Shown: one piece after another, positions 5,314-26,347 of the stretch
Position numbering within the stretch: the stretch's first letter is position 1
Layout of the letters: each line of letters opens with the position of its first letter
Assembly (NCBI GenBank): GCA_028289585.1
Contig: JANQPI010000020.1
Coordinates: 408,039-472,038 of the forward strand
DNA length: 64,000 bases
DNA from: Candidatus Zixiibacteriota bacterium
GTDB lineage: Bacteria > Zixibacteria > MSB-5A5 > GN15 > FEB-12
Reading direction: 5' to 3'
Notes under the pieces: generated by a model
The model's database searches: none
Told to the model about the DNA's origin: nothing
The model's input: only the letters and a program-made list of their open reading frames with translations
Translations under genes and position numbers: made by a program

Positions 5314-5651
5314 CGCCTCGGACGTTAGGTGAACCACTCGTGATGCCCCATCACAAAGGAACAGAACACATACCGATTCGATAACGGCAGAGAGCTAAGT
5401 ACTTCTCCTCGATAGCTGGCTGTGGGGGCCGCCTGTCGGGTAACAACGGGTAAGCTTCAAAGCGAACTACTGTTAACGGAATTACACACCCGTCGTGGCT
5501 ACGGTCTCGGCGAATTGGCTGTGGTGCCTGAAATGGTCCCAATGTCCAAAGGGTCACGTGATTCTGTCGATACAAGGAAAAGCAGGGTTGAATGACCTCA
5601 GTTCGACTCAGCGTCAGTAGTTCACAGAAAAGTAGTTGTCAGGAGGTCGGT

Positions 5652-6809
5652 ATGCCGTCGGTTGCCCAACCGAAGCATCAATTAGCCACGCTAGGACTGG
5701 CGTCGTTCTTCGCTTTGATCCTTGCCCTTGCCGTATTCACGCCATCGTCATCCGCACAGATCCCCGATGTTACCGTGCAGATTAGTGATACCGTTGGTGC
5801 GGCCGGCACACAGAACTCCGTCGTCACGGTCTTTCTCGACAATCCCTTTGATACGATCGCCGGCTTCGAGCTGTGGTTGCGCATCGACAACCTGAATCTC
5901 GCCGAGTTTCAAACCGACACCGCCACTATTATAGATACGTTCTTCTACGTCCTGGATACGACGGTGTGTATCGTTGATCAGAACGACGACACGATCTGTA
6001 CGTTCTTCGATACCCTGGAAGTCACGGAAGCCGATCCGTTTGAAGTCACGATTATCGACACGTTCGATGTGGTCGTTGGCAACATTGATACGACGGGCAC
6101 GCTTGTCGCCGGCTGGGATCTGGTCGCCTCCCGCTCAATTTTTGGCGTTGGTAACGATGTCAAGGTGACCGCGCTGGCGAGAGGGACGCCGCAGTCAACA
6201 ACGCCACTGATTACGCCGCAGCAGGGGGGCGTACTATTTCGTCTGTTGGCGGATATCAAGCCAATACCTGACACGGTAACTGACAATGTCGCCGGGATCT
6301 TTATCGAGCCGTTCCTTGATGAGTTCAATATCTCGTCGCCGTCGGGCGCCTCTCTCGGCATCGCCCAGTTCCCGACCGTCGATACCAGCTTCTTCCGCTG
6401 CGATTCCTTTGTCCCACCTGATTCGATTATCTGCGCCTCATACACCGAGGTCTCGTTCCCGCCCTTTGACTCCCTCTTTATTGACACGATCGATGTCCCC
6501 GAGCTGTGTGATTCGGCGACGGTCGCAAACGACAGTCTGGGTAACTGTACGGGAACAGAGTACATCCTCCTTCGTCGTGGGTCGATCACGGTGTTGCCGG
6601 GGAATTGCGGAGATATTAATGGAGATGGAAACGTTGGCTTGCCGGATCTCTCGGCGCTGATCGATCATCTCTTTATTTCGTTCAGCCCAATCGATCAGGT
6701 TGCGGCGAATGTCGATTGCAGTCTTGATGGGAATGTCGGGTTACCCGATCTGTCGGTGTTGATCGACCATCTCTTTATCTCGTTTACGCCACTCTGTTGC
6801 GAGATATAG
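5652..6809 (+). CDS. Secreted cohesin-like/dockerin protein
   Basis: A 385-residue exported protein. I chose ATG 5652, preceded by AGGAGG with correct spacing, over ATG 5592. It gives a good signal peptide ending at about SSSAQ (residue 35). A cohesin-like beta-sandwich region follows (about 40-230), recognised by a pattern of the type 'GxxnsvvxVxLdNxxxxiaGFELWLRID'. The C terminus has two dockerin type I loops, DINGDGNVGLPDLSALIDHLF and DCSLDGNVGLPDLSVLIDHLF. Both carry calcium-binding Asp/Asn positions, and they are nearly identical, which suggests recent internal duplication. It has no sorting domain of the NYPNPFNP type. Confidence 0.82.
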   Translation: MPSVAQPKHQLATLGLASFFALILALAVFTPSSSAQIPDVTVQISDTVGAAGTQNSVVTVFLDNPFDTIAGFELWLRIDNLNLAEFQTDTATIIDTFFYVLDTTVCIVDQNDDTICTFFDTLEVTEADPFEVTIIDTFDVVVGNIDTTGTLVAGWDLVASRSIFGVGNDVKVTALARGTPQSTTPLITPQQGGVLFRLLADIKPIPDTVTDNVAGIFIEPFLDEFNISSPSGASLGIAQFPTVDTSFFRCDSFVPPDSIICASYTEVSFPPFDSLFIDTIDVPELCDSATVANDSLGNCTGTEYILLRRGSITVLPGNCGDINGDGNVGLPDLSALIDHLFISFSPIDQVAANVDCSLDGNVGLPDLSVLIDHLFISFTPLCCEI

Positions 6810-7150
6810 AGATGAGAACGGCTTAAGAAAAGAAACATGTGGTGCTCATTGGTCTTTAACAGTGGGCACCTAGTGTAGTACTCGCAGAAACGTTGTTCCG
6901 GAGCCACACCACTCCGGAGCAAGATAGGAAACCAGTCGTATTTGATGGAGAGGAGGACGTTACTCGAGGCACACTGCACGCGCTAAGTATAGGAACACGT
7001 GCAACTCTGGCGACCTTGATTGATTCACAAAAGCACTGACGGTAAGTGGCTCTCGCCGAACGTGATGTTGAATTGATTTGAGGGGGAAAAAGAACGTTAG
7101 AGACGCACAGCGCTAACTCAATTTGTTAACGAAGTTGTTAGGAGAAAAAG
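6810..7150. other. Intergenic leader before major secreted-protein gene
   Basis: A 341-base gap with no credible gene. The only clear element is the ribosome-binding site TTAGGAG about 7 bases before ATG 7151. I found no convincing -35/-10 pair and no recognised riboswitch. Confidence 0.5.
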
Positions 7151-9757
7151 ATGAAGCGACTCACCAAAGTTTTCGCTCTCATCGCGGCGGTCGCCCTCAT
7201 TGGGACGAGCGCCTACACTCAGGGTGTTGACTACTCGATTGAGCAGGTCACCAACACCTTTAGCCCGACGCAGCTGACTGCCGGTAATGATCACCAGGCT
7301 CAGATTCGCGTCACCAACAACACCGGCCTCGGTGGCTGGAACTACTCGACCGGTTTCGAAGTTTCGTCACCGGACGGCGCGACCTGGGGTCTCCCGGTTG
7401 CCGATACGATGGTGTTCATCAGCCCGGTCTTTGACGACGGTGCGTTGTTCGCGCAGCGCTTCCGTAACCGCTTTGGCGTTGATGGCGCCGGCGCTGACAC
7501 GTTCGCCTACGCTGGTGTTACGTTCTCGCCGACCGGCGGTGTCCCGGCCGGTTTTGACGATGTTGCCTTTGGCTTCACGTTCATCTCCAACCTGGCCGAC
7601 TCGAATCTAACGATTTGTGTCGACTCGGTGACGAACTTCCCGCCGACCAACGTCTGGATCTGGTCGAACGCTGACATTACCCAGGCCGACGTTCTGCCGA
7701 CCTGGTCAGGTGAAGAGTGCTTCACCGTTTTCAACGTTCCGGATCTTCCGCCGGATATCACGAACTGCCCGACCAATGTTACGGGTAGCGTTTGTGAGAC
7801 TCTGACCGAAACTTTCCAGGGTTTTGATGCTGAAGGCAGCCCCTTCACCTTTGAAATCGTTTCGGGTCCTGGTGCGATCGATGCCAACTCTGGTGTTTAC
7901 ACCTTCTCGCCGACCAACGCCGACGTGCTCGCCTCGCCGATCACCGTCGAAGTTGCCGCGCGTGACGGCGTCACCGGCGTCCTTGGCCCGGTCTGCCAGT
8001 TCGATCTCGTTGTGACCAACACGGCTCCGTCGATCACCAACTGCCCGGGCAGCAACCTGACCGGCGTTGTTGGTAAGGATGCCACCACCGATCTCGATGC
8101 TGCCGATCCTGACGTTTGCCAGACGCTTGCCTGGTCGGTCGTCGGTGGTTCGGCTGCTGGCGTTGCTTCGGTTGACGCCAACGGTGTTGTCACCTTCACC
8201 CCGGATGCCGCTGATGTCGGTACCGTCACGGTTGAAGTTGAGGTCTCCGATGGTCTGGAAACTGATCTTTGCGTTCTTACCTTCGACGTCACCGCTGGTG
8301 CCCCGTATGGTATCCGCATTGAGAAGATCCACAACCAGCTCCAGGGTCAGTTCACCACCGTCAACGTTATCCTCGAGTCGATCGATGCTAACGAAGGCCT
8401 CGGTGGTTTTGACCTCCTGATCAAGTATGACAACTCCGCTCTGTCGCTGCAGCAGGCTGTGCCTGGTGACATCTACGCCGAGTGTGGTTGGGAATACTTT
8501 GACTACCGTTTCGGTGCCAATGGCAACTGCGACGGTGGCTGCCCGTCGGGTGTCGTCCGTGTCGTCGGTCTTGCTGAGACCAACAACGGCCCGAACTTCG
8601 CCGGCTGCACGCCGACCTACGTCGGCACGACTCCGGTCTCCCTGGCCGGTCTCGTCTTCCTGGTCTCCAACGACCGTACGCTGGAATGCCAGTACGTTCC
8701 GGTTCGCTTCTTCTGGCTCGACTGTGGTGACAACACCCTCTCGAACGCCACTGGTACCGAACTGTACATCAACTCGGCCATCTACGAATACCGTGGCGAC
8801 GACGCTCTGTTTGGCGCCAATGGTAATCCGGATATCGCCGATGGTTCGTTTGGCTTCCCGGGCTACGTTGGTGCCCCGGATGTCCCGTGTCTTGATGGTG
8901 ATAAGGAAGTTCCGGAGCGTAACATCGACTTCCAGAACGGTGGTGTTGACATCATCTGTGCTGACTCGATCGATGATCGCGGCGACATCAACCTCAACGG
9001 CCTCGCTTACGAGATTGCCGATGCGGTTATGTTCACCCGTTACTTCCTCGTTGGCCTGAGCGCGTTCCCCTTCATCGAAGGTTCGATCGCTGCTTCGGAC
9101 GTCAACAACGATGGTAACCCGCTCACCGTTGCTGACCTCGTCACGCTGATCCGTGTCGTCGTCGGTGATGAGCTTGGCATTCCGAAGGCCGCCCCGGCGG
9201 TTAACGCTGACTACACCCTGGCTGCCAATGGCGTCGTCTCCCTCCGTGGTGAGGCCGCTGCTGCGCACCTCGTAGTTTCCGGTAATGTCACGCCGACCGT
9301 CCTGGTCGACGCTGAGCTCGGCTATGAGTACGATGCTGCCAATGATGTCACGAGCATCCTCGTTTACCCGGCGATCGTCGAAGGTAACACCGTTGATAAC
9401 TTCACCGGTGACTTCGTCAACGTTGGTAACGGCGAAATCGTGAGCATCGAGCTGGCCACCGCGGCCGGTTCCCCGGTTGTCACCAATCCTCTGCCGACCT
9501 CGTTTGCTCTCGAGCAGAACTACCCGAACCCGTTCAACCCGACCACGACGATCGCCTTCACGCTGCCGGTTTCCGGTCAGTACGAAATGACGATCTACAA
9601 CGCGATTGGTCAGGTTGTCGAGGTTATCGCTGGTAACGGCTCTGCCGGCCCGGCGACCATCGAGTGGGATGCTGGCAACTACGCTTCGGGCGTCTACTTC
9701 TACAAGCTCTCGGCCGGTGCCGAAAGCATCACGAAGAAGATGGTTTTCCTGAAGTAA
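7151..9757 (+). CDS. Abundant secreted protein: Ig-like, cohesin-like, dockerin-like and sorting domains
   Basis: An 868-residue exported protein with a signal peptide ending near AYTQG (residue 25). Two Ig/cadherin-like repeats (about 205-390, with PDITNCP and PSITNCP starts) are followed by a cohesin-like module (about 395-560). A dockerin-like pair comes next (about 615-680: DINLNGLAYEIADAVMFTRYF and DVNNDGNPLTVADLVTLI). The end is a type IX-style sorting domain with NYPNPFNPTTTI and a GVYFYKL-KKMVFLK tail. Codon choice is strongly biased: no TTA, CTA or TCA codon occurs across 7706-9268. A strong terminator follows. The bias implies very high expression, so an S-layer-like role is a reasonable inference. 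Confidence 0.82.
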   Translation: MKRLTKVFALIAAVALIGTSAYTQGVDYSIEQVTNTFSPTQLTAGNDHQAQIRVTNNTGLGGWNYSTGFEVSSPDGATWGLPVADTMVFISPVFDDGALFAQRFRNRFGVDGAGADTFAYAGVTFSPTGGVPAGFDDVAFGFTFISNLADSNLTICVDSVTNFPPTNVWIWSNADITQADVLPTWSGEECFTVFNVPDLPPDITNCPTNVTGSVCETLTETFQGFDAEGSPFTFEIVSGPGAIDANSGVYTFSPTNADVLASPITVEVAARDGVTGVLGPVCQFDLVVTNTAPSITNCPGSNLTGVVGKDATTDLDAADPDVCQTLAWSVVGGSAAGVASVDANGVVTFTPDAADVGTVTVEVEVSDGLETDLCVLTFDVTAGAPYGIRIEKIHNQLQGQFTTVNVILESIDANEGLGGFDLLIKYDNSALSLQQAVPGDIYAECGWEYFDYRFGANGNCDGGCPSGVVRVVGLAETNNGPNFAGCTPTYVGTTPVSLAGLVFLVSNDRTLECQYVPVRFFWLDCGDNTLSNATGTELYINSAIYEYRGDDALFGANGNPDIADGSFGFPGYVGAPDVPCLDGDKEVPERNIDFQNGGVDIICADSIDDRGDINLNGLAYEIADAVMFTRYFLVGLSAFPFIEGSIAASDVNNDGNPLTVADLVTLIRVVVGDELGIPKAAPAVNADYTLAANGVVSLRGEAAAAHLVVSGNVTPTVLVDAELGYEYDAANDVTSILVYPAIVEGNTVDNFTGDFVNVGNGEIVSIELATAAGSPVVTNPLPTSFALEQNYPNPFNPTTTIAFTLPVSGQYEMTIYNAIGQVVEVIAGNGSAGPATIEWDAGNYASGVYFYKLSAGAESITKKMVFLK

Positions 9758-9779
9758 GTTCGCTTTCGCGACTTCTCTA

Positions 9780-9812
9780 CCCCGGTGGCACTCGTGCCAC
9801 CGGGGTTTTTTT
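9780..9812 (+). terminator. Rho-independent terminator
   Basis: A 12-bp perfect stem (CCCCGGTGGCAC/GTGCCACCGGGG, 9780-9805) is followed by seven T residues. It lies 22 bases after the stop of the abundant secreted-protein gene. Confidence 0.92.
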
Positions 9813-10009: not shown

Positions 10010-10061
10010 TGCTGTAGAAACAGCATATTCGTCTTGACGAATCGGATCGGTTTGGTATACT
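10010..10061 (+). promoter_or_regulatory. Strong promoter with -35 inside a palindrome
   Basis: TTGACG (10034-10039), a 16-base spacer and TATACT (10056-10061) form a good sigma70 promoter. The -35 lies in the dyad ATTCGTC-TT-GACGAAT (10027-10042), as expected for a repressor operator. A second dyad, TGCTGT-agaa-ACAGCA (10010-10025), is directly upstream. Transcription would start near 10068 and run towards the gene at 11212. Confidence 0.55.
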
Positions 10062-10067
10062 TAGAGT

Positions 10068-11211
10068 CCCGGCGGAATTGTCCGTTGGAGATATCTACTT
10101 TGGAGGTTCAGCTCACCCCCTTTCGCTCACGGTAATCGTCGCCTGCTAGGCGCGTAAACTGATCCACAGTTTATCGGACACGAGGTCCGACGGAGTAACC
10201 GATGAGTAGAGCTGACGCCCATCCCCTCAGACGTCCTCTCGCTTCGCTTGACAGTCACAGGTATGTGGGGCGCATCATGGGTGCGCATCTGTGTGACCGT
10301 CGCGCGGTCACTCCGCTCGGACCGAAAACTACTGACATAGTAAGTCATATTTCAGTCACACATTCCGGTGTGATGCTGCCGCGCTCGCGGACGGATCTAG
10401 GTGAAGTGACCCGGTGGACGGGACGGGAGACAGAGGAATCTCGTACCCGTTCCGCCGGGAGCTTCGCTGCCCTCAGACAGGGGCCACCAAGGGCCGAAAG
10501 TCTGTCAAAATCATGTTCGGCTGTTCACAAAGCGAGAATTTACGCTATCTCCAACCTATTGTTGCCTAGCTCATTACCGACAAGAAACAGAGCTAACGCA
10601 GGACCGCTTCATCTGCGACTATACCTGTCAGAAATGGTGACAGAGGGTGGCCGTTGGAGGGGGCGAATGTTTGACAAAAGTGGACTTTGGGCCGTTATTG
10701 AAACGACTGTACTCACAAGTGGAAAATCGAGTCTAGGACTCGCGAAAAGAGACAAGAACACTAAGCACAAGAGGACCGCGATTCCCCCGGGAATCGTTGT
10801 GGATGGCCACGCAGGAAATTGCTGTCGGCCGGTGGCAAGCCGATAGCGATCAGCTGTTTCTCCGATGACCCAGTATCCAACGCTCCCCTCACCTCACGTT
10901 GGATGCAGTCGGTTGCGTATGCAATCCGTTTCGTCATCGGGGTGACCTACCTCACCCTACCGCCGAACTCCTGCCGGCCTCTGATGTACCGTATCGCCAT
11001 TCGCTCAGGAAGCGCGAATCCGACCAGGATGGTCAGGTAACTCGTTGCCGATCTTACGTCTCTCCTTTTGGGAGAAACGCGAGAGCGGCTTGACCTGACA
11101 CCGCGACCCGACTCCGAACCGGAACGGGTGGCCTGCGGACCACAGAGTAAAGCTGGTCTGGGAATTGCTTTCTGACCGGCAGTCGGCACCACGAGGTGCG
11201 GATAACGTGAG
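10068..11211 (+). ncRNA. Candidate structured RNA or very long leader
   Basis: This is part of a 1.4-kb stretch without a credible gene. It starts at a strong promoter and contains many perfect hairpins. Examples are GTGACCG/CGGTCAC (10293-10311), TCACAC/GTGTGA (10356-10373) and CCGCG/CGCGG (10379-10390). Others are CAGAC-GGCC/GGCC-GTCTG (about 10474-10503), CTGTCA/TGACAG (10625-10643) and CGATTCC/GGAATCG (10779-10796). Further along lie ATCCAACG/CGTTGGAT (10875-10904), GGGTGA/TCACCC (10940-10957), ATTCGC/GCGAAT (10999-11019) and GCACC/GGTGC (11186-11199). I do not recognise RNase P, tmRNA, 6S, a group I/II intron core or a known riboswitch. It could be the 5' leader of the 11212 gene or a separate RNA. 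Confidence 0.3.
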
Positions 11212-13644
11212 ATGTTCAAAAAAGTAGCAGTAGCCATAGTCCTAACGGGAGTGATGCTGATGCCGGCCTGGGCCGACTCTGATCCTTTTGGTGAACTTGA
11301 CCGGGTGACGGTTGAGTCGTTATCAGGTCGCCAGGGCGAAATGATCACCGTCCCCGTTTTGCTGACCAACGATCAGCCGTTGGCCTCGTTCTCGGTCCCG
11401 CTGCGCTATGACACGAGCGCATTGACGTTCCTTGGAGTATCTTTCGCCGAAGGACGTGTCAGTAGCTGGCAGAATCTCATTGTCACCCCCGAGAATCCGT
11501 CGTCGGTTGACGGCCACGTTCTGGTGGCGGCGATTCGTTTCTTCGAGGAGCCGCTCGCTGCTGGTACCGGTGAGATCTTCCGATTAACATTCTCCGTCGA
11601 TCCCAATGCTTCGGTCGGCATCGACGCGACCATCGATTCTTTATTCTATCCTCCCGGTGGCGAATTGCTGCTGGTCGCTGAGGAGAACTCCGCAACGTAC
11701 GTTCCGGGCTTTTCCGCTGGCACGATCACGATCGCGGAAGCGAATCGCCCTCCGCTCGTTTCGGCGATCTCCGAAACGTCAATTCTCGAAGGGGATAGTC
11801 TACGACTGACGTTCGCTGCTACCGACCCCGACGGCGATTCGCTTTCCTATGTGGCGATCAGCAAGCCGACCGGTGCGGTCTTCGCTGATCACGGCGACGG
11901 CTCTGCAGAATTGCTCTGGTCACCGGAATTCGTGGGGCCGTCCTCAGCCGATGCCTCGCCGTTTGCTGTTGTCGTCCGGGTCTCTGATGGTCGCGTCGCG
12001 ACTCAGGAGACGGTCGCCATCACGGTTGTTAATCGCAATCGTGCCCCGGTTGTTACGGCACCCGATTCGGTGAGTGGTATTGCCGGACAAACGATCTCGT
12101 TTGCGATCTTGGCAGTTGATCTTGATTTTGAAACCGTCAGCTGGAGCACTAAGGACGAGCCGACCAATGCCCAGATCGTGGGTGAGGAGACGCTCTCGTT
12201 CTTCTGGACACCGTCGTTCGTCGACACGGGCAATTTCACGGTGACGATTATTGCCAGTGACCCCGTTGGCGCAACCGATACCGCCCGCGTTGTCCTTTCG
12301 ATTGCTTCGGCAACGGTCTATCAGCTCTCGCTCGACACTGTCTCCGTCGAGATTGCCGATACAACGTCGTTAGCACTCAACCTGACGAACCTCGTACCGG
12401 TCTCCGGATTTGTTGTCGACGCCAGTTACGATCCGACCGCGATTGTCATCTCCGACATCCGTTTCGATGAGGGTCGGGCGTCGTCGTTTGAATATCTGTT
12501 ATCAGAAGTCGATCCGGACGGTCAGGTTGGTACGCTGCGCCTGGTTGGTCTTTCGAACGGTTTGGAATCGACGGTAACGACGCCGGTTGATTCCGGATCC
12601 GGAGCTTTGGCTACGATTAGTATTCGGGCTCGTAATGATCTGACGTTAGCCGGCCAGGCCGTTCCCCTGCGATTCATAGTCGCGAGCGACACGAGCAACG
12701 TGTTACGCGATTCGGTCGGAACGATTGTTCCATCCGATGACATCACGCTCGTCGATGGCCTTGTCCTGATCGAATCGATCGGCGATATTCAGATAGGCGA
12801 CATCAATCTGAACGCGATTCCGTTCGAAATCGGTGACGCGATCTACTTCACCAACTATTTCATCTCGCCAAGCGAATTCCCGTTCAACCTGCTGCAGTTT
12901 GCCAATTCCGATGTGAACGGCGATGATATCGTCGCGTCCATCTCCGATCTCGTTTCTCTACTCAATATCCTGGTATCCGGAACACGCGACATCGGACCGT
13001 CGGCACAGTCACGTACCGATACCACGGTTGTCTACGTATCGACGAGCTACCGCGACGGCACCCTGCAACTGTCAACGTCCAGCGATCTGCCGTTGGGCGG
13101 GATCTTGATCCGGCTAACCGGACCCAATGCCGGAGCTATGGACATTGATCTACAGGCCTCGCAGATGGACATGCTGACGATGCAGACTGACAGCTCACTG
13201 GCAGTACTGCTCTATTCGATGAGCGGTGAGACGATAGCGTCGGGATCGCTGCCAATCGTTCGATTCACAGAGGCCGATGGCGTTACTCTTGAAACGATCG
13301 ACATCGGTCGTTACGATGCCGGTCCGATCCGTGTCGAACGCGGTCACGGTACCGAATTGCCGGAGTCATTCCGACTCGATCAGAATTACCCTAACCCGTT
13401 CAATCCTACGACGACGATTCGCTTTGCCCTGCCGGAGAGTGGGGCAACGCGCTTGGTGATATACAACCTGCTCGGACAATCGGTCCGCACGCTTGCCGAC
13501 GAACAGTTGTCGGCTGGTGAGCATGTCGTGACCTGGGATGGTCGCGACAACAGTGGATCGCCGGTTGCATCCGGAGTCTATTTCTATCGCCTGGAGACAA
13601 GCGGGCGGATGAGTGAGACTCGAAAGATGCTGCTGGTGCGCTAG
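11212..13644 (+). CDS. Secreted protein: two cohesin-like modules, cadherin-like repeats, dockerin and sorting domain
   Basis: An 810-residue exported protein. The signal peptide ends near PAWADS (residue 24). The first cohesin-like module spans about 28-180 (pattern QGEMITVPVLLTNDQPLASF). Two cadherin/Ig-like repeats cover about 180-365, and a second cohesin-like module about 370-520. A dockerin pair lies at about 525-590, with DINLNAIPFEIGDAIYFTNYF and DVNGDDIVASISDLVSLL. A linker and a C-terminal sorting domain (NYPNPFNPTTTI, GVYFYRL, RKMLLVR) end the chain. It is preceded by the long hairpin-rich region. The Shine-Dalgarno is weak, and a GCACC/GGTGC hairpin ends 12 bases before the ATG. 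Confidence 0.82.
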   Translation: MFKKVAVAIVLTGVMLMPAWADSDPFGELDRVTVESLSGRQGEMITVPVLLTNDQPLASFSVPLRYDTSALTFLGVSFAEGRVSSWQNLIVTPENPSSVDGHVLVAAIRFFEEPLAAGTGEIFRLTFSVDPNASVGIDATIDSLFYPPGGELLLVAEENSATYVPGFSAGTITIAEANRPPLVSAISETSILEGDSLRLTFAATDPDGDSLSYVAISKPTGAVFADHGDGSAELLWSPEFVGPSSADASPFAVVVRVSDGRVATQETVAITVVNRNRAPVVTAPDSVSGIAGQTISFAILAVDLDFETVSWSTKDEPTNAQIVGEETLSFFWTPSFVDTGNFTVTIIASDPVGATDTARVVLSIASATVYQLSLDTVSVEIADTTSLALNLTNLVPVSGFVVDASYDPTAIVISDIRFDEGRASSFEYLLSEVDPDGQVGTLRLVGLSNGLESTVTTPVDSGSGALATISIRARNDLTLAGQAVPLRFIVASDTSNVLRDSVGTIVPSDDITLVDGLVLIESIGDIQIGDINLNAIPFEIGDAIYFTNYFISPSEFPFNLLQFANSDVNGDDIVASISDLVSLLNILVSGTRDIGPSAQSRTDTTVVYVSTSYRDGTLQLSTSSDLPLGGILIRLTGPNAGAMDIDLQASQMDMLTMQTDSSLAVLLYSMSGETIASGSLPIVRFTEADGVTLETIDIGRYDAGPIRVERGHGTELPESFRLDQNYPNPFNPTTTIRFALPESGATRLVIYNLLGQSVRTLADEQLSAGEHVVTWDGRDNSGSPVASGVYFYRLETSGRMSETRKMLLVR

Positions 13645-16308: not shown

Positions 16309-16333
16309 CGACGTGGAGAGGAAGTTAACACGT

Positions 16334-19300
16334 ATGTTGAAGCGAATTACCGCCACCACCATTACGCTGATGCTGCTCCTCGCGGTAGGCGCAGCCGCCC
16401 AGACCGTACCGCCCACGCTCGACCCAATCGGGCCGCAGGCGATCGATGAGGGCGCGACGCTAAACTTCACGGTGACCGCCTCGGATGGCGACGGTACCAC
16501 GCCGTCTCTTTCCGCGATTGACCTTCCTGCTGGTGCGTCGTTTATCGACAATGCCAATGGGACCGGATCATTCAGCTGGACGCCAACGTTTGCCGATTCG
16601 GGATCGTACGACCTTACGTTCCGAGCCGCCGACCCGGTGACCACCGCCGATACGACGATTGAAGTCGTAACGATTACGGTCAATCAGGTAAACCAGGCGC
16701 CCGTTCTCGCGCCGATTGGTAACCAGTCGGGCGACGAAGGTACGCTGATCACGTTCGGTGTGACGGCGTCCGATCCGGATGGGTTCATCCCGACGCTGAC
16801 GACATCGACATTGCCGGGTACGGCTTCGTTTGTCGACAATGGCAACGGTACGGGTACGTTCTCGTGGACCCCGACCCTGGCCGATTCGGGTAACTACTCG
16901 ATCACGTTCACCGCGACGGATGATTCACTAGCGACCGATGCTGAAACGATTACGGTCCGTGTTGATCAGCTCAATCAGGCTCCTGTACTCGCCGCTATTG
17001 GCGACCAGTCCGGCGACGAAGGAACGCTGATCACGTTCGGTGTGACGGCGTCCGACCCGGATGGTTTTATCCCAACATTGACGACGTCGACATTGCCGGG
17101 AACGGCTTCGTTTATCGACAATGGTAACGGCACCGGGACGTTCTCGTGGACCCCGACGTTGGCCGACTCGGGTGATTACTCGATCACGTTTACCGCGACG
17201 GATGACTCGACGGTCACCGATGACGAGACGATTACGGTCCGCGTTGATCAGGTCAACCAGGCTCCTGTACTCGATCCGATCGGTGCCCAGGGCGGTCCCG
17301 AGGGATCGACGATCGCCTTTACGGTTACGACCTCGGATCCTGACGGGATCATTCCGACGCTAAGCGCAACGAACCTTCCCACCGGTGCGTCGTTCATCGA
17401 CAATGCGAACGGCACCGGTTCGTTCTCCTGGCCGACGACACTCAGCGACGCCGGCACGTACAACGTAACGTTTACCTCGACTGATGACTCGCTCGTCACC
17501 GATCAGGAGATCGTGACGATCACTGTTGGTCAGGTGAACCAGCCGCCGGTGCTCGCCGCGATTGGCGACCAGTCGGGTGACGAAGGAACGCTGATTACGT
17601 TTGGTGTTAGTGCGTCCGATCCGGATGGGTTCATCCCGACGCTGACGACATCGACACTTCCGGGTACGGCTTCGTTTGTCGACAATGGCAACGGCACCGG
17701 GACGTTCTCGTGGACCCCGACGTTGGCCGATTCGGGTAACTACTCGATCACGTTTACCGCGACGGATGATTCACTCGCGACCGATGCTGAAACGATTACG
17801 GTCCGTGTTGATCAGGTCAACCAGGCTCCTGTACTCGCCGCTATTGGCGATCAGTCGGGCGACGAAGGAACGCTGATCACGTTCGGTGTGACGGCGTCCG
17901 ACCCGGATGGTTTTATCCCAACATTGACGACGTCGGCGTTGCCGGGTACGGCTTCGTTTATCGACAATGGTAACGGCACCGGGACGTTCTCGTGGACCCC
18001 GACGTTGGCCGATTCGGGTGATTATTCGATCACGTTTACCGCGACGGATGACTCGACGGTTACTGATGACGAGACAATTACGGTCCGTGTTGATCAGGTC
18101 AACCAAGCTCCTGTACTCGATCCGATCGGTGCCCAGGGCGGTCCCGAGGGATCGACAATCGCCTTTACGGTTACGACCTCTGATCCCGATGGGATCATTC
18201 CGACGCTAAGCGCAACCAACCTTCCCACCGGTGCGTCGTTTGTCGATAATGCCAACGGTACCGGCTCATTCTCGTGGCCGACGACCCTCAGTGATGCCGG
18301 CACGTACAACGTAACGTTTACCTCGACTGATGACTCGCTCGTCACCGATCAGGAGATTGTAACGATCACTGTTGGTCAGGTGAACCAGCCGCCGGTGCTC
18401 GCCGCTATTGGCGATCAGTCGGGCGACGAGGGGACGCTGATTACGTTCGGTGTGAGTGCATCCGATCCGGATGGGTTCATCCCGACGCTGACGACATCGA
18501 CACTGCCGGGTACGGCTTCGTTTGTCGACAATGGCAACGGCACCGGGACGTTCTCGTGGACCCCGACGTTGGCTGATTCGGGTAACTACTCGATCACGTT
18601 TACCGCGACGGATGATTCACTCGCGACCGATGCTGAAACGATTACGGTCCGCGTTGATCAAGTGAACCAGACGCCGACGCTTGCGGCGATCGGAGCTCAG
18701 TCAGGTGATGAGAATCAGCTGCTGACGTTCGTCGTTTCGGCATCCGATCCGGATGGTTTTATCCCAACATTGACGACGTCGGCGTTGCCGGGTACGGCTT
18801 CGTTCGTCGACAACGGCAACGGTACCGGGACGTTTTCGTGGACGCCGACATTTGCCGATGCTGGCCTCTATAACGTTACGTTTACCGCGACCGATGATTC
18901 CTCGACGACCGACTCAGAAGTCGTGGCGATTACGATCAATAACATCAACCAGCCGCCAGTTCTGGCACCGATCGGTCCGCAGTCAGGTACCGAGGGCGCG
19001 TTAGTTTCGTTCACGGTTACCGCGACCGACGGTGATGGAACGATCCCGACATTGAGTGGCGCACCGCTGCCGACCGGTGCGTCGTTTGTCGATAATGCCA
19101 ACGGCACCGGCACATTTACCTGGACACCGTCGTTCACCGACGCCGGCGTCTACAATATTACGTTCACTGCGACCGATGATTCGTCCGCAACCGACAGCGA
19201 AATTGTCGCGTTGACGATTGGCGATGCTGGCAATCAGCTGCCGGTCTTTGCTCCTCAGGCAGACATCAACATCGATGAGGGTGCGACCGGTGGCTTCACG

Positions 19301-22300
19301 GTCAGTGCCACCGATGCCGATCTGGAAACGCCGGTGCTCACGATTCTGGGCGCTCTGCCGGCCAACGCTGGCTTTGTCGACAACGGCAACGGCTCCGGCG
19401 ACTTTACGTTCTCGCCGGACTTCACCCAGCGCGGCAGCTATCCGATCAGCTTCGTTGCGACCGATGGTTCCGGCGGCGCTGATACCCTGGTAGTGACGGT
19501 TACTGTCGATGGCATCAATGTCGCGCCGGTTCTCGCTGCCATCGGTGGTCAGAGCGGTGCGGAAAACACGTTGATTACGTTCGGCGTATCGGCGACCGAT
19601 GCCAACGGCACCACACCGTCGCTTTCGGCTGCTCCGTTGCCGACGGGCGCCTCATTCGTTGACAATGGCAACGGTACCGGGACGTTCAGTTGGACCCCGA
19701 CCTTCGCCGACCAGGGTTCGTATCCGATCACGTTCACGGCAACGGATGATTCGCTGACGACAGACACAGAGCTTGTTACTGTGACAGTTGGTCAGGTCAA
19801 CCTGCCGCCGGTGCTCGATCCGATTGGCGCTCGGGCGATCGACGAAAATGCTCTTCTGTCGTTCACGGTAACGGCATCGGATCCCGATGGAACGATCCCG
19901 ACGCTGACGACGACTACACTTCCCGGAACAGCCACCTTTGTTGACAACGGCAACGGTACGGGGACGTTCAGTTGGACGCCATCATTGGCTGACTCCGGCG
20001 ACTACTCTGTAACCTTCACGGCCACCGATGATTCATTGGTGACCGATACCGAAGTCGTTGCGATTCGTGTGAATCAAGTCAACCAAGCGCCGGTGTTGAG
20101 TGCGATTGGCAATCGTTCGGTCAATGAGAACGTCCTGCTCTCCTTCTCGGTAACAGCGAGCGATCCCGACGGGGTGATTCCGTCGCTGGGCGCCGCACCG
20201 TTGCCGACCGGAGCGACGTTTGTCGATAACCTCGACGGTACTGGGACGTTCAGCTGGACTCCGACCTTTACCGATCAAGGGACATATAACCTGACCTTTA
20301 CCGCGTCCGATGATTCCCTCGCGACCGACAGTGAGGCGATCACGATCACGGTCAATCAGATCAACCAGCCACCGGTTCTCGATCCGATCGGTCCGCAGTC
20401 AGTGATTGAAGGCAACACGCTGAATTTCACTGTGACGGCAACCGATATCGACGGTCAGATTCCGACGCTGGGTGGCGCTCCGATTCCGACCGGTGCCACG
20501 TACGTTGACAATGGTAACGGTACGGCCACGTTCAACTGGCCGACCACGTTTAATGATGCCGGCGTCTACAATGTAAACTTCACGGCGATCGACGATTCCG
20601 GCTCGATCGACAATGAAGTCGTCTCGATTTCGGTGATCGATGCCGGTAACCAGCCGCCGGTCTTCGACCCGCAGGCCGATACGACCGTTGCCGAGGGTGG
20701 TACGGTGGTCTTTACGGTCAGTGCAACCGATCCGGAAGGGACGACACCGACCTTTAGCTCGCTACCGCTTCCGGCGAACGCGTCGCTGGTTGATAACTTC
20801 AACGGCACGGCAACGGTCACGTTCAATCCCGATTTCACACAGCGCGGGAGCTATCCTTTCACGCTATTTGCGATTGACGGTGGATCGGCGCGCGATACGC
20901 TGGTTGTTACCGTGACAGTCACCGGTGTTAACGTCGTTCCTGTCCTGAGTGCTATCGGCCCGCAGGGTGGCGATGAAAACACGCTCATCTCGTTTGCGGT
21001 CACCGCAACCGATGACAACGGTACCAATCCAACGCTCACCGCGGTGCCGCTACCGACCGGTGCGTCGTTCGTTGACAACGGTGATGGTACCGGGCTCTTC
21101 ACCTGGACGCCGACGTTCGCGGATCAGGGTGCCTATCCGATCACATTCACGGCAACTGATGATTCGCTGACGACCGATTCGGAAGTGGTCACGGTTACCG
21201 TTAATCAGATCAACTTGCCGCCGGTGCTGGCCGCAATCGGTAATCAGGCCGGACCAGAGGGACAGTTGCTGACGTTCAACGTCTCGGCAAGTGATCCCGA
21301 TGGTACAATTCCGACCCTGTCGACGACCGCGCTGCCGACTGGTGCGTCGTTCGTCGACAATCTCGACGGCACCGGAACGTTTACCTGGACGCCAACATTG
21401 GCCGATTCGGGTAACTATGCGTTGACGATTACCGCGACCGATGATTCACTCGCCACGAGTTCCGAGGCGATTACGATTCGTATCGATCAGGTCAACCAGA
21501 CTCCGGTTCTGACGCCGATCGGCAATCGCACGGTCAACGAGAATGTGCTCCTCTCATTCACCGTGTCGGCCAGTGACGCCGATGGTGTCATTCCGACCTT
21601 AACCGCGCTTCCGTTGCCGACCGGTGCGTCGTTTGTCGATAACCTCGACGGAACCGGTACGTTCAGCTGGACGCCGACGTTCGATGATTCCGGAGCGTAC
21701 GCGATTACCTTCACGGCGACCGATGATTCGCTGACGACGGCGAGCGAGTTAATTACGATTACGGTTAACAATATCAATCAGCCGCCGGTGCTCGATCCGA
21801 TTGGACCGCAGGGCGGCATTGAAGGCTCAACCGTCTCGTTCACGGTGACGGCCTCCGACCCTGACAATACAATTCCGCTGCTGACGGCGGCACCGCTGCC
21901 AACCGGTGCAACGTTCACCGACAATCTCAACGGCACCGGAACGTTCAGCTGGCCGACGACATTCAATGACGCCGGTAGCTATCCGATTACGTTCAGCGCG
22001 ATCGATGATTCAGCGATTACGGATATCGAAGTCGTTGTTGTCTCGATCACCGATGCCGGTAACCAGCCGCCGATCTTCGCGGCGCAGGCGGATACCGCAA
22101 TTCTGGAGAACCAGACGCTAACTCTGACCGTGAGCGCGATCGATCCGGAAGGCGGAACGCCGTCTATTTCGTTGATCACGCCGCCGGCCAACGCGAGCCT
22201 GGTCGACAATAACGACGGCACCGGGACGCTGACCTTCACGCCCGACTCGACTCAACAGGGTGTCGTACCGATTCGCTTCCTGGCTACTGATCCGGGCTTT

Positions 22301-25300
22301 GCGACTGACACGCTCGAAGTCAACGTCACGGTTGGTAACGTCAATGTCGCTCCGGCGCTTGCTGCGATCGGACCTCGTTCCGGTGATGAAGGTGCGCTGC
22401 TTTCGTTCGTCGTATCGGCGTCCGATTTCGACGGCACGATCCCAACCTTGTCAGCGGCTCCACTTCCGGGAACTGCGACGTTCCTCGATAATCTCGACGG
22501 AACCGGCACGTTCAGCTGGACGCCGACCTTTACTGATTCCGGCACGTACGCCGTGACTTTCACGGCAACCGATGACTCGCTGCTTACCGACACCGAGCTG
22601 GTCACGATCACGATCAATAACGTGAACCAGCCACCCGTATTGGCGCCGATCGGTAATCAGGTCGTTGCCGAGGGTGCGTTGCTCTCGTTCACGGTTACGG
22701 CTACCGACGATGATGGCGTCATTCCGACGCTCAGTGCCGCACCTCTGCCGGGGGCAGCGACGTTTGTCGATAACCTCGACGGTACCGGTACCTTCACCTG
22801 GACGCCAGGCTTCACCGAGGCCGGTTCGTACCCGGTGACATTCACGGCGACCGATGATTCGCTCGCGACGGCCACTGAGTTGGTAACGATCACTGTTACC
22901 GATGGTGGTAATCAGGCGCCGATCTTCGCCGCTCAGGCCGATACGTCGATCGATGAAGCCGCAACACTAACGCTTACGGTCAGTGCGACTGATCCGGATA
23001 CCGAAATTCCGACGTTGACCGCGCTGGCTCTGCCGGCTAATGCGGCGTTTGTTGACAATCTGGACGGAACGGGTACGCTGACGTTCTCTCCAGATTTCGC
23101 GCAATCAGGGCTCTACCCATTCTTCTTTATTGCCACTGATGCTGGTCTTCTGGCCGACACGTTGATTGTGAACGTAACGGTCAATGAGATCAATGAGATC
23201 CCGGTCCTTGCCGCGATCGGTGCTCAGGCCGGACCGGAGAATGCGCTCCTTACATTTACGGTTACGGCAACGGATGCGGATGCAACGATTCCGGTGCTTT
23301 CGGCCTCACCGTTGCCGGTGGGTGCAGCGTTTGTGGACAACCTCGATGGAACGGGAACGTTTAGCTGGACGCCAACTCTGGCCGACAGCGGAACGTACGC
23401 CGTGCTATTCGTGGCTACCGATGCGCTCTTCCCAACGGTCAGTGACACCGAAACGGTGACGATTACCATCGTTGATGCGAATGAGCCACCGGTCCTGTCG
23501 ACAATCGGACCACAGTTCGTGCAGGAAGGTGATACGATCACATTCGGCTTTACGGCGGTTGATCCGAATCTTCTTGATGCGGTAACGTTCGCTGCGGCCA
23601 ACGTTCCACCGAACGCGAGTCTCTTCGATTCGCTCAACGGAGCCGGTTCATTTACCTTCGCGCCGGACTTCACGCAGGGCGATTCGACCTATGATGTTCT
23701 AATCATAGCGACCGATGGTCAGCTTTCGGATACCGAGCTCGTTGCCATTACCGTTTCCGGTGCCGGCAACCAACCACCGGTCATCGCGCCGCTTGCTGAT
23801 ACGACCGTCCTTGAGGGCGGTACGCTCGCCATAACGATCTCCGCGGTCGATCCCGATGGTCTCGGCACCTTCCCAACCCTGTCGATCAGTTCAGGTCTGA
23901 ACAATGCGACCTTCGTCGACAACGGCGACGGAACCGGTCTGTTGACCTATACGCCAACGTTCCTCGATGCCGGTACGGACACGATTCGCGTCTTCGCCGC
24001 TGATCAGGGAACGCCGATCGCAACTGGTACCGCGACCTTCTTTATTACGACCATTGATGTCAATCAGCCGCCGGACATCGTTCCCGACGGACCGTTTGTC
24101 ATCCAAACGTTGCGTGAATTGGCGGTAACGATCGTTGCCACCGATTCAACCGATCCGAACACTGGTAATCGCATCTTCCTGCAGGCGCTCAGTTTGCCGC
24201 TTGGTGCGAGCTTCGTTGACAATGGTGACGGTACCGGATCCTTTACGTGGACTCCGGATACGAACCAGATCGGTGCTGATAGCCTGGTGATCACGGCTAC
24301 CGACGAAGGCACACCGGCACTCGCATCGCAGGCGACCTTCCTCATCGACGTTCGCCAGGTCAACATTCCGCCGAATGTCATCGTTGCCAGCCCCTATGTG
24401 GTTGGTGAAGGGCAGTCCTTAAGTTTCCCGGTCGGATCAATCGATCCGGACAACGGTCCGATTGTACCGATGGTGCTTTCGGTTGAGGATCTCCCGGATG
24501 GTGCGACGTTTACTGACAACCTCGACGGAACCGGGCAATTCGACTGGACACCGAGCTTTGTCCAGGCCGGTCTCTACGCTCCGGCGTTCCGAGCGTTCGA
24601 TGGTGTCTCGGTCGGTCGTGAGGTTGTCTTCATCCAGGTTCTTGAGGCCGGTAATCAGGTTCCGGTCTTCGGTACGCTGCCGTCGGATACGGTGACCGAA
24701 GGATCGACCGTCGTGTCGACCGTGACCGCCACCGATCCGGAAGGCGGAGTTGTTCAGATGGCTGTTGTGAACGGTACGCTCCCGGCGAATGCGACGACCG
24801 ACCAGGTTGCCGACGGTGTTCTGGAGATCACCTTCTCGCCTGACTTCACCCAATCGGGAACGGTGTTGATCGATGTCGAAGCATCAGACGGCGTGAGTGC
24901 CGACACGGCAACGATAACGATTACGGTTTTCGATGCCGGTAACCAGTTGCCGATTCTTGCGGCGATAGGACCGCAATCGGTCACTGAGTTGAACGCGCTG
25001 AACTTCGTCGTAACGGGCTCTGATCCCGACGGAGTGGCTCCGGTCCTGACGGCCGATCCGCTGCCAGCCGGGGCGACCTATACCGACAATAATGACGGCA
25101 CCGCGAACTTCTCGTGGATCCCCAGCGACGTTCAGTCGGGGAGCTACGATATCCTCTTCCTCGCGGAAGATGCCGCCTTCCCGGGCGTTGCCGATAGCGA
25201 GCTTGTGACAATCACGGTAGCGGATACCAATCGGCTCCCATTTATCTTCACGTCCGGATCGCGCACCATCGCCGAGGGGGATACGCTCGAGTACACGGTC

Positions 25301-26347
25301 TTCACGACCGACCCCGACGGTACCATCCCGTCGCTGGGTGTCACGCTCGATGGTGAGGATACCCTGGCCACCAATATGGTCTTTGTGGACTCGGGGAACG
25401 GTGCTGGAACGCTCTTCTTTACGCCGAACTTCCAGCAGGGTGCGACCCCGTCGCAACCATACTTCGTGAAGTTCTTTGCGGTCGATGCTGATGATCCGGC
25501 TCTCATTAGGGAACAGACCGGAAACATCCTGATTTCTGTGGAGAACCGAAACCAGCCACCGTCGGTCTTCATCGCCTTCGGTGGTCCCGGACCGTTCTCA
25601 ATTCTGGAAGGCGAGACACTTGGCTTTACCATGGGGGCGGTCGATTCCGACGGTGTCGTGGCTCCCACGTTTACATCGCCGAACCTCCCGACCGGAGCGA
25701 CGTTCGATGTGACGGCCAACGCCAATCAGTCGGTGGGTACCTTCGCCTGGACACCCAACTTCACCCAAGCCGGTGTTTACGCCATCGAGTTCCTCGCGGT
25801 CGATGTGGGTGGCGATTCTACAACCCTCATTGTCGACGTTACCGTTGGCGACGCTGGCAATCAGCCGCCCCAGTTCGTCAACCCGCTCGACAGCAATCTG
25901 AGTATCCCCGTCGGACGTACGACATCGTTGCGTATCGAAGCGTATGATCCGGAAGGTGGGGCAGTCGTCCTATCTGCTGCTCCGCTGGCAGCGGGTATGA
26001 CGTTTGTCGATTCTGGCAACGGTATTGGTACTCTGACGTACACGCCGGATTCGGCCTCACTCGGTACAATTTCAGGGCTCACCATAACCGCAACCGATCC
26101 GTTCAATGCGAGCTCTCAGATAGCCAGTGACTTTGTGGTCGTGACATTCCTCCGCGGTGATGTGGATGGCTTAAACGGCTACTCGATCGGAGATCTCGTC
26201 TTCCTGCTGAACTATCTGTTCCGTGGTGGTGATGATCCGGAGGTCGTGGAGGCAGCGGATGTGAACAGCGATGATCGCATCAATGTCGGCGATGTGACCT
26301 ATCTGATTCAGTACATCTACTTCGACGGTCTCCCACCGGGACCGTAG
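16334..26347 (+). CDS. Giant secreted repeat protein: 34 Ig/cadherin-like domains plus C-terminal dockerin
   Basis: A 3337-residue exported protein and the largest gene in the window. ATG 16334 follows an AGAGGAAG ribosome-binding site and a signal peptide ending GAAAQ; the upstream GTG at 16313 lies in the binding site itself. I count 34 tandem domains of about 94 residues. Each starts with an NQxPVLxxIGxQ-type motif and contains an SDPDG loop, a DNGNGTGTFSWTP segment and an FTATDDS segment, resembling the putative-Ig (He_PIG)/cadherin-like families. The repetitive DDS and DNGNG loops could bind calcium. The C terminus is a dockerin pair (DVDGLNGYSIGDLVFLLNYLF and DVNSDDRINVGDVTYLIQYI), with no sorting domain. 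It is probably a surface adhesin or structural fibre. Confidence 0.85.
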   Translation: MLKRITATTITLMLLLAVGAAAQTVPPTLDPIGPQAIDEGATLNFTVTASDGDGTTPSLSAIDLPAGASFIDNANGTGSFSWTPTFADSGSYDLTFRAADPVTTADTTIEVVTITVNQVNQAPVLAPIGNQSGDEGTLITFGVTASDPDGFIPTLTTSTLPGTASFVDNGNGTGTFSWTPTLADSGNYSITFTATDDSLATDAETITVRVDQLNQAPVLAAIGDQSGDEGTLITFGVTASDPDGFIPTLTTSTLPGTASFIDNGNGTGTFSWTPTLADSGDYSITFTATDDSTVTDDETITVRVDQVNQAPVLDPIGAQGGPEGSTIAFTVTTSDPDGIIPTLSATNLPTGASFIDNANGTGSFSWPTTLSDAGTYNVTFTSTDDSLVTDQEIVTITVGQVNQPPVLAAIGDQSGDEGTLITFGVSASDPDGFIPTLTTSTLPGTASFVDNGNGTGTFSWTPTLADSGNYSITFTATDDSLATDAETITVRVDQVNQAPVLAAIGDQSGDEGTLITFGVTASDPDGFIPTLTTSALPGTASFIDNGNGTGTFSWTPTLADSGDYSITFTATDDSTVTDDETITVRVDQVNQAPVLDPIGAQGGPEGSTIAFTVTTSDPDGIIPTLSATNLPTGASFVDNANGTGSFSWPTTLSDAGTYNVTFTSTDDSLVTDQEIVTITVGQVNQPPVLAAIGDQSGDEGTLITFGVSASDPDGFIPTLTTSTLPGTASFVDNGNGTGTFSWTPTLADSGNYSITFTATDDSLATDAETITVRVDQVNQTPTLAAIGAQSGDENQLLTFVVSASDPDGFIPTLTTSALPGTASFVDNGNGTGTFSWTPTFADAGLYNVTFTATDDSSTTDSEVVAITINNINQPPVLAPIGPQSGTEGALVSFTVTATDGDGTIPTLSGAPLPTGASFVDNANGTGTFTWTPSFTDAGVYNITFTATDDSSATDSEIVALTIGDAGNQLPVFAPQADINIDEGATGGFTVSATDADLETPVLTILGALPANAGFVDNGNGSGDFTFSPDFTQRGSYPISFVATDGSGGADTLVVTVTVDGINVAPVLAAIGGQSGAENTLITFGVSATDANGTTPSLSAAPLPTGASFVDNGNGTGTFSWTPTFADQGSYPITFTATDDSLTTDTELVTVTVGQVNLPPVLDPIGARAIDENALLSFTVTASDPDGTIPTLTTTTLPGTATFVDNGNGTGTFSWTPSLADSGDYSVTFTATDDSLVTDTEVVAIRVNQVNQAPVLSAIGNRSVNENVLLSFSVTASDPDGVIPSLGAAPLPTGATFVDNLDGTGTFSWTPTFTDQGTYNLTFTASDDSLATDSEAITITVNQINQPPVLDPIGPQSVIEGNTLNFTVTATDIDGQIPTLGGAPIPTGATYVDNGNGTATFNWPTTFNDAGVYNVNFTAIDDSGSIDNEVVSISVIDAGNQPPVFDPQADTTVAEGGTVVFTVSATDPEGTTPTFSSLPLPANASLVDNFNGTATVTFNPDFTQRGSYPFTLFAIDGGSARDTLVVTVTVTGVNVVPVLSAIGPQGGDENTLISFAVTATDDNGTNPTLTAVPLPTGASFVDNGDGTGLFTWTPTFADQGAYPITFTATDDSLTTDSEVVTVTVNQINLPPVLAAIGNQAGPEGQLLTFNVSASDPDGTIPTLSTTALPTGASFVDNLDGTGTFTWTPTLADSGNYALTITATDDSLATSSEAITIRIDQVNQTPVLTPIGNRTVNENVLLSFTVSASDADGVIPTLTALPLPTGASFVDNLDGTGTFSWTPTFDDSGAYAITFTATDDSLTTASELITITVNNINQPPVLDPIGPQGGIEGSTVSFTVTASDPDNTIPLLTAAPLPTGATFTDNLNGTGTFSWPTTFNDAGSYPITFSAIDDSAITDIEVVVVSITDAGNQPPIFAAQADTAILENQTLTLTVSAIDPEGGTPSISLITPPANASLVDNNDGTGTLTFTPDSTQQGVVPIRFLATDPGFATDTLEVNVTVGNVNVAPALAAIGPRSGDEGALLSFVVSASDFDGTIPTLSAAPLPGTATFLDNLDGTGTFSWTPTFTDSGTYAVTFTATDDSLLTDTELVTITINNVNQPPVLAPIGNQVVAEGALLSFTVTATDDDGVIPTLSAAPLPGAATFVDNLDGTGTFTWTPGFTEAGSYPVTFTATDDSLATATELVTITVTDGGNQAPIFAAQADTSIDEAATLTLTVSATDPDTEIPTLTALALPANAAFVDNLDGTGTLTFSPDFAQSGLYPFFFIATDAGLLADTLIVNVTVNEINEIPVLAAIGAQAGPENALLTFTVTATDADATIPVLSASPLPVGAAFVDNLDGTGTFSWTPTLADSGTYAVLFVATDALFPTVSDTETVTITIVDANEPPVLSTIGPQFVQEGDTITFGFTAVDPNLLDAVTFAAANVPPNASLFDSLNGAGSFTFAPDFTQGDSTYDVLIIATDGQLSDTELVAITVSGAGNQPPVIAPLADTTVLEGGTLAITISAVDPDGLGTFPTLSISSGLNNATFVDNGDGTGLLTYTPTFLDAGTDTIRVFAADQGTPIATGTATFFITTIDVNQPPDIVPDGPFVIQTLRELAVTIVATDSTDPNTGNRIFLQALSLPLGASFVDNGDGTGSFTWTPDTNQIGADSLVITATDEGTPALASQATFLIDVRQVNIPPNVIVASPYVVGEGQSLSFPVGSIDPDNGPIVPMVLSVEDLPDGATFTDNLDGTGQFDWTPSFVQAGLYAPAFRAFDGVSVGREVVFIQVLEAGNQVPVFGTLPSDTVTEGSTVVSTVTATDPEGGVVQMAVVNGTLPANATTDQVADGVLEITFSPDFTQSGTVLIDVEASDGVSADTATITITVFDAGNQLPILAAIGPQSVTELNALNFVVTGSDPDGVAPVLTADPLPAGATYTDNNDGTANFSWIPSDVQSGSYDILFLAEDAAFPGVADSELVTITVADTNRLPFIFTSGSRTIAEGDTLEYTVFTTDPDGTIPSLGVTLDGEDTLATNMVFVDSGNGAGTLFFTPNFQQGATPSQPYFVKFFAVDADDPALIREQTGNILISVENRNQPPSVFIAFGGPGPFSILEGETLGFTMGAVDSDGVVAPTFTSPNLPTGATFDVTANANQSVGTFAWTPNFTQAGVYAIEFLAVDVGGDSTTLIVDVTVGDAGNQPPQFVNPLDSNLSIPVGRTTSLRIEAYDPEGGAVVLSAAPLAAGMTFVDSGNGIGTLTYTPDSASLGTISGLTITATDPFNASSQIASDFVVVTFLRGDVDGLNGYSIGDLVFLLNYLFRGGDDPEVVEAADVNSDDRINVGDVTYLIQYIYFDGLPPGP
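16694..18949 (+). repeat. Nearly identical 282-bp units in 846-bp tandem blocks
   Basis: Domain starts fall at 16694, 16976, 17258, 17540, 17822, 18104, 18386 and 18668, exactly 282 bases apart. Units 1-3 (types A, B, C) recur as units 4-6, and A recurs again as unit 7. This gives an 846-base block repeated about 2.3 times, from 16694 to 18667, with high DNA identity. The eighth unit is related but diverged. The block structure implies recent duplication by recombination. Confidence 0.85.
19223..22051 (+). repeat. Two copies of a five-domain super-repeat
   Basis: Domains 11-15 and 16-20 follow the same order: a DAGNQ...PQAD type, an NVxPVL type, an NLPPVL type, an IGNRxVNEN type and an NQPPVLDPIGPQ type. 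The copies start at 19223 and 20639 (1416 and 1413 bases). A partial third copy starts at 22052, and another DAGNQ-like unit occurs at 22901. The copies are diverged compared with the 846-base blocks, so this duplication is older. Confidence 0.7.

Follow-up and report, generated by a model that had tools for sequence, protein, structure and literature searches.

RsmZ has several stem-loops of the A(N)GGAX type and an intrinsic terminator at its end, and the high-affinity CsrA/RsmE (Csr/Rsm) site is an ANGGAX hexaloop placed directly on a stem (PMC4005645). Among the large ornate RNAs, members of GOLLD exceed 800 nt (PMC12286853). In searches of the literature on CsrA or on cohesin/dockerin with Zixibacteria, no RNA-based regulation in this group was found. 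Leader RNAs as long and as conserved as those described here are, to our knowledge, rare in bacteria.

The window, as we call the whole 64,000-nt stretch of Candidatus Zixiibacteriota DNA that was analysed, includes a hairpin-rich region that we consider probable, with somewhat better than even confidence, to be a long structured noncoding leader of a cohesin surface-protein gene. In its relatives this leader would be CsrA-responsive, judging from predicted binding sites, and in the window it would have been rebuilt.

The gene-free stretch and its surroundings

The region 10010-11211 is the 5' region of a + strand gene (11212-13644) whose secreted product has a cohesin domain and a sorting (Por) tail. 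The gene upstream, also on the + strand (7151-9757), encodes a secreted protein with Big_9/cadherin domains and a C-terminal Por sorting tail, as indicated by the ORF list and Pfam, and is followed by its own intrinsic terminator, a hairpin with seven T (9779-9806, + strand). A tail of the TKK..LLK* type also closes the upstream gene in most relatives. Elsewhere in the window a ParB gene is found at 12-656, about 10 kb upstream of the leader, and a dockerin-domain gene at 5592-6809, at the end of which a 200-nt segment (6701-6900) has a + strand folding z of -4.5. Further sorting-tail genes are followed by an ORF of 3344 aa (16313-26347), with abundant Ig-like, cadherin and PKD repeats in its first 1229 aa.

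A sigma70-type promoter, TTGACG-16-TATACT, with 10 of 12 consensus matches was located at 10034-10061 on the + strand, and its -35 hexamer is included in the perfect palindrome ATTCGTC-TT-GACGAAT (10027-10042, + strand), in agreement with the preliminary description, which had reported a strong promoter overlapping a palindrome in this way. The scanned region has two promoter-like sites, compared with 0.8 ± 0.8 in shuffled sequences. The RNA start predicted from this promoter is at about 10068, which shifts the beginning of the candidate transcript from the position 10010 given previously. A hairpin lies at the predicted 5' end (10066-10092, + strand, z -3.65), and no terminator-like site was found on the + strand from 10068 to 11212.

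Eleven perfect Watson-Crick stems (at least 6 bp, loops of 3-10) were counted in 10010-11211, compared with 2.1 ± 1.3 in shuffles (maximum 6, n = 60). The earlier count of more than ten short perfect inverted repeats was thus accurate, and its reservation that some of the hairpins would occur by chance was too cautious. The comparison of folding energy with shuffled sequence, proposed in the same description, placed the + strand of the stretch far below the controls, with -479.5 kcal/mol against -423.0 ± 9.1 in dinucleotide shuffles (z -6.2); the z of the - strand was -3.2. Against a genome-matched control, 10068-11207 gave a z of -4.7 to -5.1, whereas 27 further stretches of 1.14 kb taken from the window averaged about -0.9; the next lowest value belonged to the overlapping stretch at 9701, followed by one of -3.3. 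Examined in 200-nt segments the folding signal is patchy, with peaks at 10301-10600 and 11001-11200. The longest single hairpin (10402-10468, + strand, -41.6 kcal/mol, z -6.3) maps to the window-specific 5' part, and a predicted three-way junction closed by CCGATGAC/GTCATCGG (10862-10940, + strand, z -5.0) includes the TGCA..TTGC landmark described below. Folding and stem counts point to a gene-free structured region at 10068-11152 on the + strand, a candidate RNA of about 1.1 kb, and this stretch very probably corresponds to a long folded RNA, the transcription of which is predicted from the promoter.

Several ORFs of 60-214 aa are present in the stretch, such as the 214-aa ORF at 10202-10846. 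Scored with the codon usage of the window, the ORFs inside the stretch gave -0.12 to -0.53 bits per codon, compared with +0.54 and +0.63 for true coding sequences, and no Pfam match was obtained for the 214-aa ORF, which supports the previous statement that no plausible gene occurs until 11212.

Searches with Rfam 15 at the gathering score gave no match for the window or for 20 relative loci, with GOLLD, ROOL, OLE, HEARO and riboswitches among the families covered, and nothing of note appeared down to an E-value of 10; a known RNA family was therefore rejected for the stretch. No tRNA or tmRNA was found in it. DNA matches were also absent from 40 relatives at an E-value of 0.001, from 131 other genomes of the phylum and from the phage collection. 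A repeat or mobile element was rejected, since the stretch is present as a single copy in its own genome and has no matches in relatives or phages.

Leaders of the orthologous genes in relatives

One weak match (E 0.005, genome G017) immediately preceded an orthologue of the cohesin gene, and offered a route to the relatives through synteny. Orthologues were found across the order, nearly all of them with gene-free leaders of about 500 nt in front, and a cohesin-gene search of named genomes gave matches mainly in Zixibacteria and neighbouring FCB lineages. L079, from a GN15 bacterium, was considered as a nearer relative and rejected, as its gene is not an orthologue.

Close leader pairs are 73-82% identical (blastn), with 64-76% identity in the neighbouring coding sequences, and their indels are few and of 1-2 nt. 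At the nucleotide level the leaders are thus no less conserved than the genes beside them. Substitutions in the leaders are distributed evenly over the three codon positions, in contrast to the coding controls, which are strongly biased to one. The 60-100 aa frames with look-alike motifs seen in relatives' leaders were for this reason rejected as a small conserved protein. In a leave-genus-out profile search nearly all leaders of the same family scored 19-118 bits, and one truncated leader scored 10.1. The relatives' cores are only modestly more stable than shuffled sequences (mean z -1.24, with -0.35 and -0.76 for coding controls).

Outside this family the leader changes. Other families of the order have a different leader and keep the element TGGTAAG...TTTTGCTC. 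In one of them (L057-L061) the GG-N10-GC element is accompanied by a mid-leader hairpin and T tract (ATGCCCG..CGGGC-TTTTTT), and the core profile is absent; these leaders are possibly a sister class. Within many genera (L033-L055) a terminator-like hairpin, GATGACC...GGTCATC, followed by 5-8 T, occupies leader positions of about 170-270, and the same helix sequence occurs in the window at 10862-10940 in a different layout and without the T tract. In L042 and L054 a nearly identical promoter-like sequence, GTGACA-17-TATAAT, immediately precedes the core at leader positions of about 180-215, an arrangement that suggests separate transcription of the core in that genus. Relatives also show a hairpin about 20 nt past the stop of the same upstream gene, with a mostly weak T tract; it was rejected as the 5' hairpin of the RNA and assigned, by its place, to the end of the upstream gene.

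A search for pairing across the alignment, made on MAFFT columns, detected no strong helix because the variable stems misalign, and was replaced by a half-swap chimera test, in which the 5' half of one genus's leader was joined to the 3' half of another's, over 15 genera. The swap weakened folding at a few places only. Two hairpins, P5 and P6, each gave p < 1/2000; the hairpin around the TGCA element gave p of about 0.01, and most other positions had no effect. The result at P5 and P6 was significant on the reverse strand too, more weakly than on the + strand. Covariation tests of this kind can be biased upwards by relatedness and base composition; most chimera positions were nevertheless flat. 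The pair covariation of P5 was 0.293, compared with 0.157 ± 0.034 in shuffles, and none of the 500 shuffles reached the observed value.

The loop of P5, A-N-G-G-A, is invariant (16/16), and is carried by stems as different as CTTAA-ACGGAC-TTAAG, GCTTAT-ACGGAC-ATAAGC and CTTGT-ACGGAA-ACAAG. The same pattern is seen at P6, with TTTCGTC-AGGGAT-CGGCGAA, TTCCAAG-CCGGATA-CTTGGAA and GACCG-ATGGA-CGGTC as examples. The relatives' leaders contain 313 GGA and 114 TCC, a one-stranded excess; ANGGA occurs 116 times in them, with 25 occurrences on the opposite strand and 82 in shuffled sequences. Inside short hairpin loops the ANGGA count is 32, compared with 6 on the other strand and 13.5 in shuffles. Of the 41 genomes in which csrA was sought, 38 have it, among them every one of the 26 good-quality genomes. 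With ANGGA loops displayed at P5 and P6, a short distance before a sigma54-like element and the gene, the leaders of the relatives most likely bind CsrA, as far as sequence and predicted structure can indicate.

A covariance model of the P5 part (R1), home-made and with rough E-values, gave matches at E ≤ 0.001 in about 29 genomes, all from the same GTDB family as the window and with essentially one strong match each. Those matches that were checked have as a neighbour a gene of this type, with a cohesin domain or a sorting tail. In the window's genome R1 also gave a weak match at another place (C16:194495, E 0.07), which was attributed to chance, since it has no ANGGA loop and no adjoining cohesin gene.

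The diverged copy in the window

The last ~270 nt of the window's leader (10904-11172) are a diverged member of this Zixibacteria cohesin-leader family, as indicated by profile score and landmark spacing. In a semi-global profile alignment that was motif-free, that is, with the terminal element left out, the 269 nt before the element scored 12.3, compared with -29.8 ± 6.1 in shuffles (z 6.9, reached in 0 of 200), and random segments of the window scored at most -8.6. The weakest accepted family member gave a z of 7.6 in the same test, close to the value of the window. A local profile search (nhmmer) recovered only the last 36 nt of the window copy, with 7.4 bits.

Four landmarks, with patterns written after inspection of the relatives, occur on the + strand at nearly the same distances from the GG-N10-GC element as in the relatives. 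TGCA-N5-TTGC (10904-10916) lies 249 nt before the element (about 250-261 in relatives), CCTCAC (10950-10955) 203 nt before it (203 in relatives), TCGCC (10994-10998) 159 nt (159), and GTAACTCGTTG (11037-11047), which contains GTAAC where the family has GTAAS, 116 nt (117). The best R1 match in the region covers the last of these landmarks, and is weak (2.5 bits, E 0.75). Like the leaders of the family, the window leader is located between a Por-tail gene and a cohesin gene and ends in TGG-N8-TTGC before the start codon.

At the place of P5 the window has a hairpin (11042-11095, + strand, z -3.3) in which an apical extension replaces the ANGGA loop, and at the place of P6 one (11098-11140, + strand) in which GGA is paired and outside the loop; position suggests that both are equivalent to the hairpins of the relatives. 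The window copy contains 2 ANGGA, compared with 5.2 expected, and none in short hairpin loops, and the CsrA part of the proposal is therefore not directly applicable to it. Some other family members also have no ANGGA loop at P5 or P6, indicating that these loops are typical of the family and not required. The genome of the window has two csrA genes over the cut-off (G000:C16:102000-102155 and C5:5183-5329), nearly all relatives having one; the genome with two csrA genes is also the one whose leader lost its ANGGA loops.

The leader of the window is about twice as long as those of its relatives (1.1 kb against ~0.5 kb), and its 5' ~800 nt gave no match in the 131 other genomes of the phylum. 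The preliminary description had offered two readings, either a structured RNA of a new kind or the leader, very long and regulated, of a gene for a surface protein. Both fit, in that the 3' 270 nt are part of a leader family that is conserved and absent from Rfam, with conservation limited to the last quarter.

The GG-N10-GC element itself, TGGTCTGGGAATTGCT, is found at 11153-11168 on the + strand and resembles a sigma54 -24/-12 site. Its TGG-N8-TTGC stands 58 nt before the start codon of the window gene and is present in all orthologues with readable sequence. GG-N10-GC is the spacing of a sigma54 promoter, and rpoN is present in the window's genome. The pattern is not enriched elsewhere in that genome (9 sites, compared with 12 for a reversed-pattern control), and we therefore treat sigma54 use at 11153-11168 as a lead. 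If the element were a true promoter, most of the mRNA of the gene would begin downstream of the structured RNA.

Proposed regulation and comparison with known systems

As a leader acting in cis, the RNA would be transcribed along the + strand, beginning at the sigma70-type promoter (10034-10061), and would control the cohesin-domain surface-protein gene at 11212, its folding or refolding setting the amount of transcript that reaches the gene or the efficiency of translation. In most members of the family, CsrA would bind the P5 and P6 loops next to the sigma54-like element and the gene. The mid-leader terminator-like hairpin and T tract of many relatives suggests that attenuation, by premature termination, may contribute in these. 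The lineage of the window would have added a structured 5' part, roughly doubling the length, and retained helices where P5 and P6 lie in the relatives; given the loss of the ANGGA loops, its own control probably operates without those sites. A wider claim is put forward tentatively, with less than even confidence: long structured regulatory RNAs of 0.5-1.1 kb, a new family in Zixibacteria, would couple the global regulator CsrA to the surface cohesin system, and one lineage would have exchanged protein-binding loops for a kilobase of new structure, with the spacing of the scaffold kept.

The RNA could instead be a trans-acting sRNA of the CsrB/RsmZ type, released to mop up CsrA, its place before the cohesin gene being inherited synteny. 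Such an RNA would account for the one-stranded GGA excess and ANGGA hairpin loops of the relatives, for essentially one strong copy per genome with csrA almost universal, and for the terminator-like hairpin and T tract that in many genera follow a GGA-rich, A-rich 5' part. We regard it as unlikely, since conservation extends to the GG-N10-GC element at a fixed distance, the family is located beside the same genes, and the window copy has no ANGGA excess.

Control at the level of DNA, with a sigma54 promoter at 11153-11168 and upstream sites for an enhancer protein, would turn the conserved blocks into protein-binding sites, and is consistent with the element in the readable orthologues and, similarly placed, in the window, with the presence of rpoN and with the almost constant landmark spacing. 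The compensatory changes in stems around a constant ANGGA loop and the strand specificity of the GGA excess argue for RNA, 300 nt of nearly indel-free conservation exceed what enhancer sites need, and the rest of the genome shows no enrichment of the element; we hold this alternative to be quite improbable.

There is also a slight chance that the 5' 800 nt of the window leader form a large ornate RNA in their own right, like GOLLD, ROOL or OLE in kind, which arose in or entered the lineage beside an old leader. This part has its own promoter, 5' hairpin and very stable hairpins, and is without a match in the 131 other phylum genomes or the phage records. Against this, no Rfam match resembling those families appears in it even at an E-value of 10, the tRNA context typical of GOLLD and ROOL is absent, and there are no relatives in which conserved structure could be seen. 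That the stretch is a decayed protein gene, or is free of genes by chance, as the ORFs of 60-214 aa might suggest, is extremely improbable in view of the negative codon scores, the missing Pfam match, the leaders without codon periodicity in relatives and the excess of folding and hairpins; the check for a decayed gene foreseen in the preliminary description thus gave no sign of one.

Were the CsrA reading of the relatives true, Csr control would extend to a secreted surface system of cohesin/dockerin type in an uncultured phylum. The leaders would then also form a natural series, ranging from ~0.5 kb where CsrA loops are present to 1.1 kb where they are absent, along which one could trace how the binding sites of a regulatory RNA are replaced. 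With the alignment of the whole family, the structure can be put to a direct test.

Of the described systems, the CsrA/RsmA-binding RNAs (CsrB, RsmZ and mRNA leaders) share with the relatives' leaders ANGGA hexaloops on covarying stems, GGA richness on one strand and csrA in the genome. Unlike CsrB and RsmZ, the Zixibacteria leader matches no Rfam family, is longer and is fixed before one surface-protein gene; multiple ANGGA sites are a property of the relatives as a group and not of the window, whose copy has no ANGGA loop. With the large ornate RNAs (GOLLD, ROOL and OLE) the window stretch shares the character of a long gene-free structured RNA candidate; it differs in having no Rfam match and no demonstrated repeated architecture, and in its location, which is on the chromosome, as the leader of a gene for a surface protein, and outside phages and tRNA islands. 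The element shares with sigma54 (RpoN) promoters the GG-N10-GC spacing with TTGC(T) at -12 and the presence of rpoN in the genome, although its -24 box is TGGTCTG or TGGTAAG and not TGGCACG. Long attenuator leaders of the L10 type resemble these leaders in their position directly before the gene and, in many relatives, in an internal hairpin with a T tract, whereas the leader has no known ligand or protein and an internal T tract is missing from the copy in the window.
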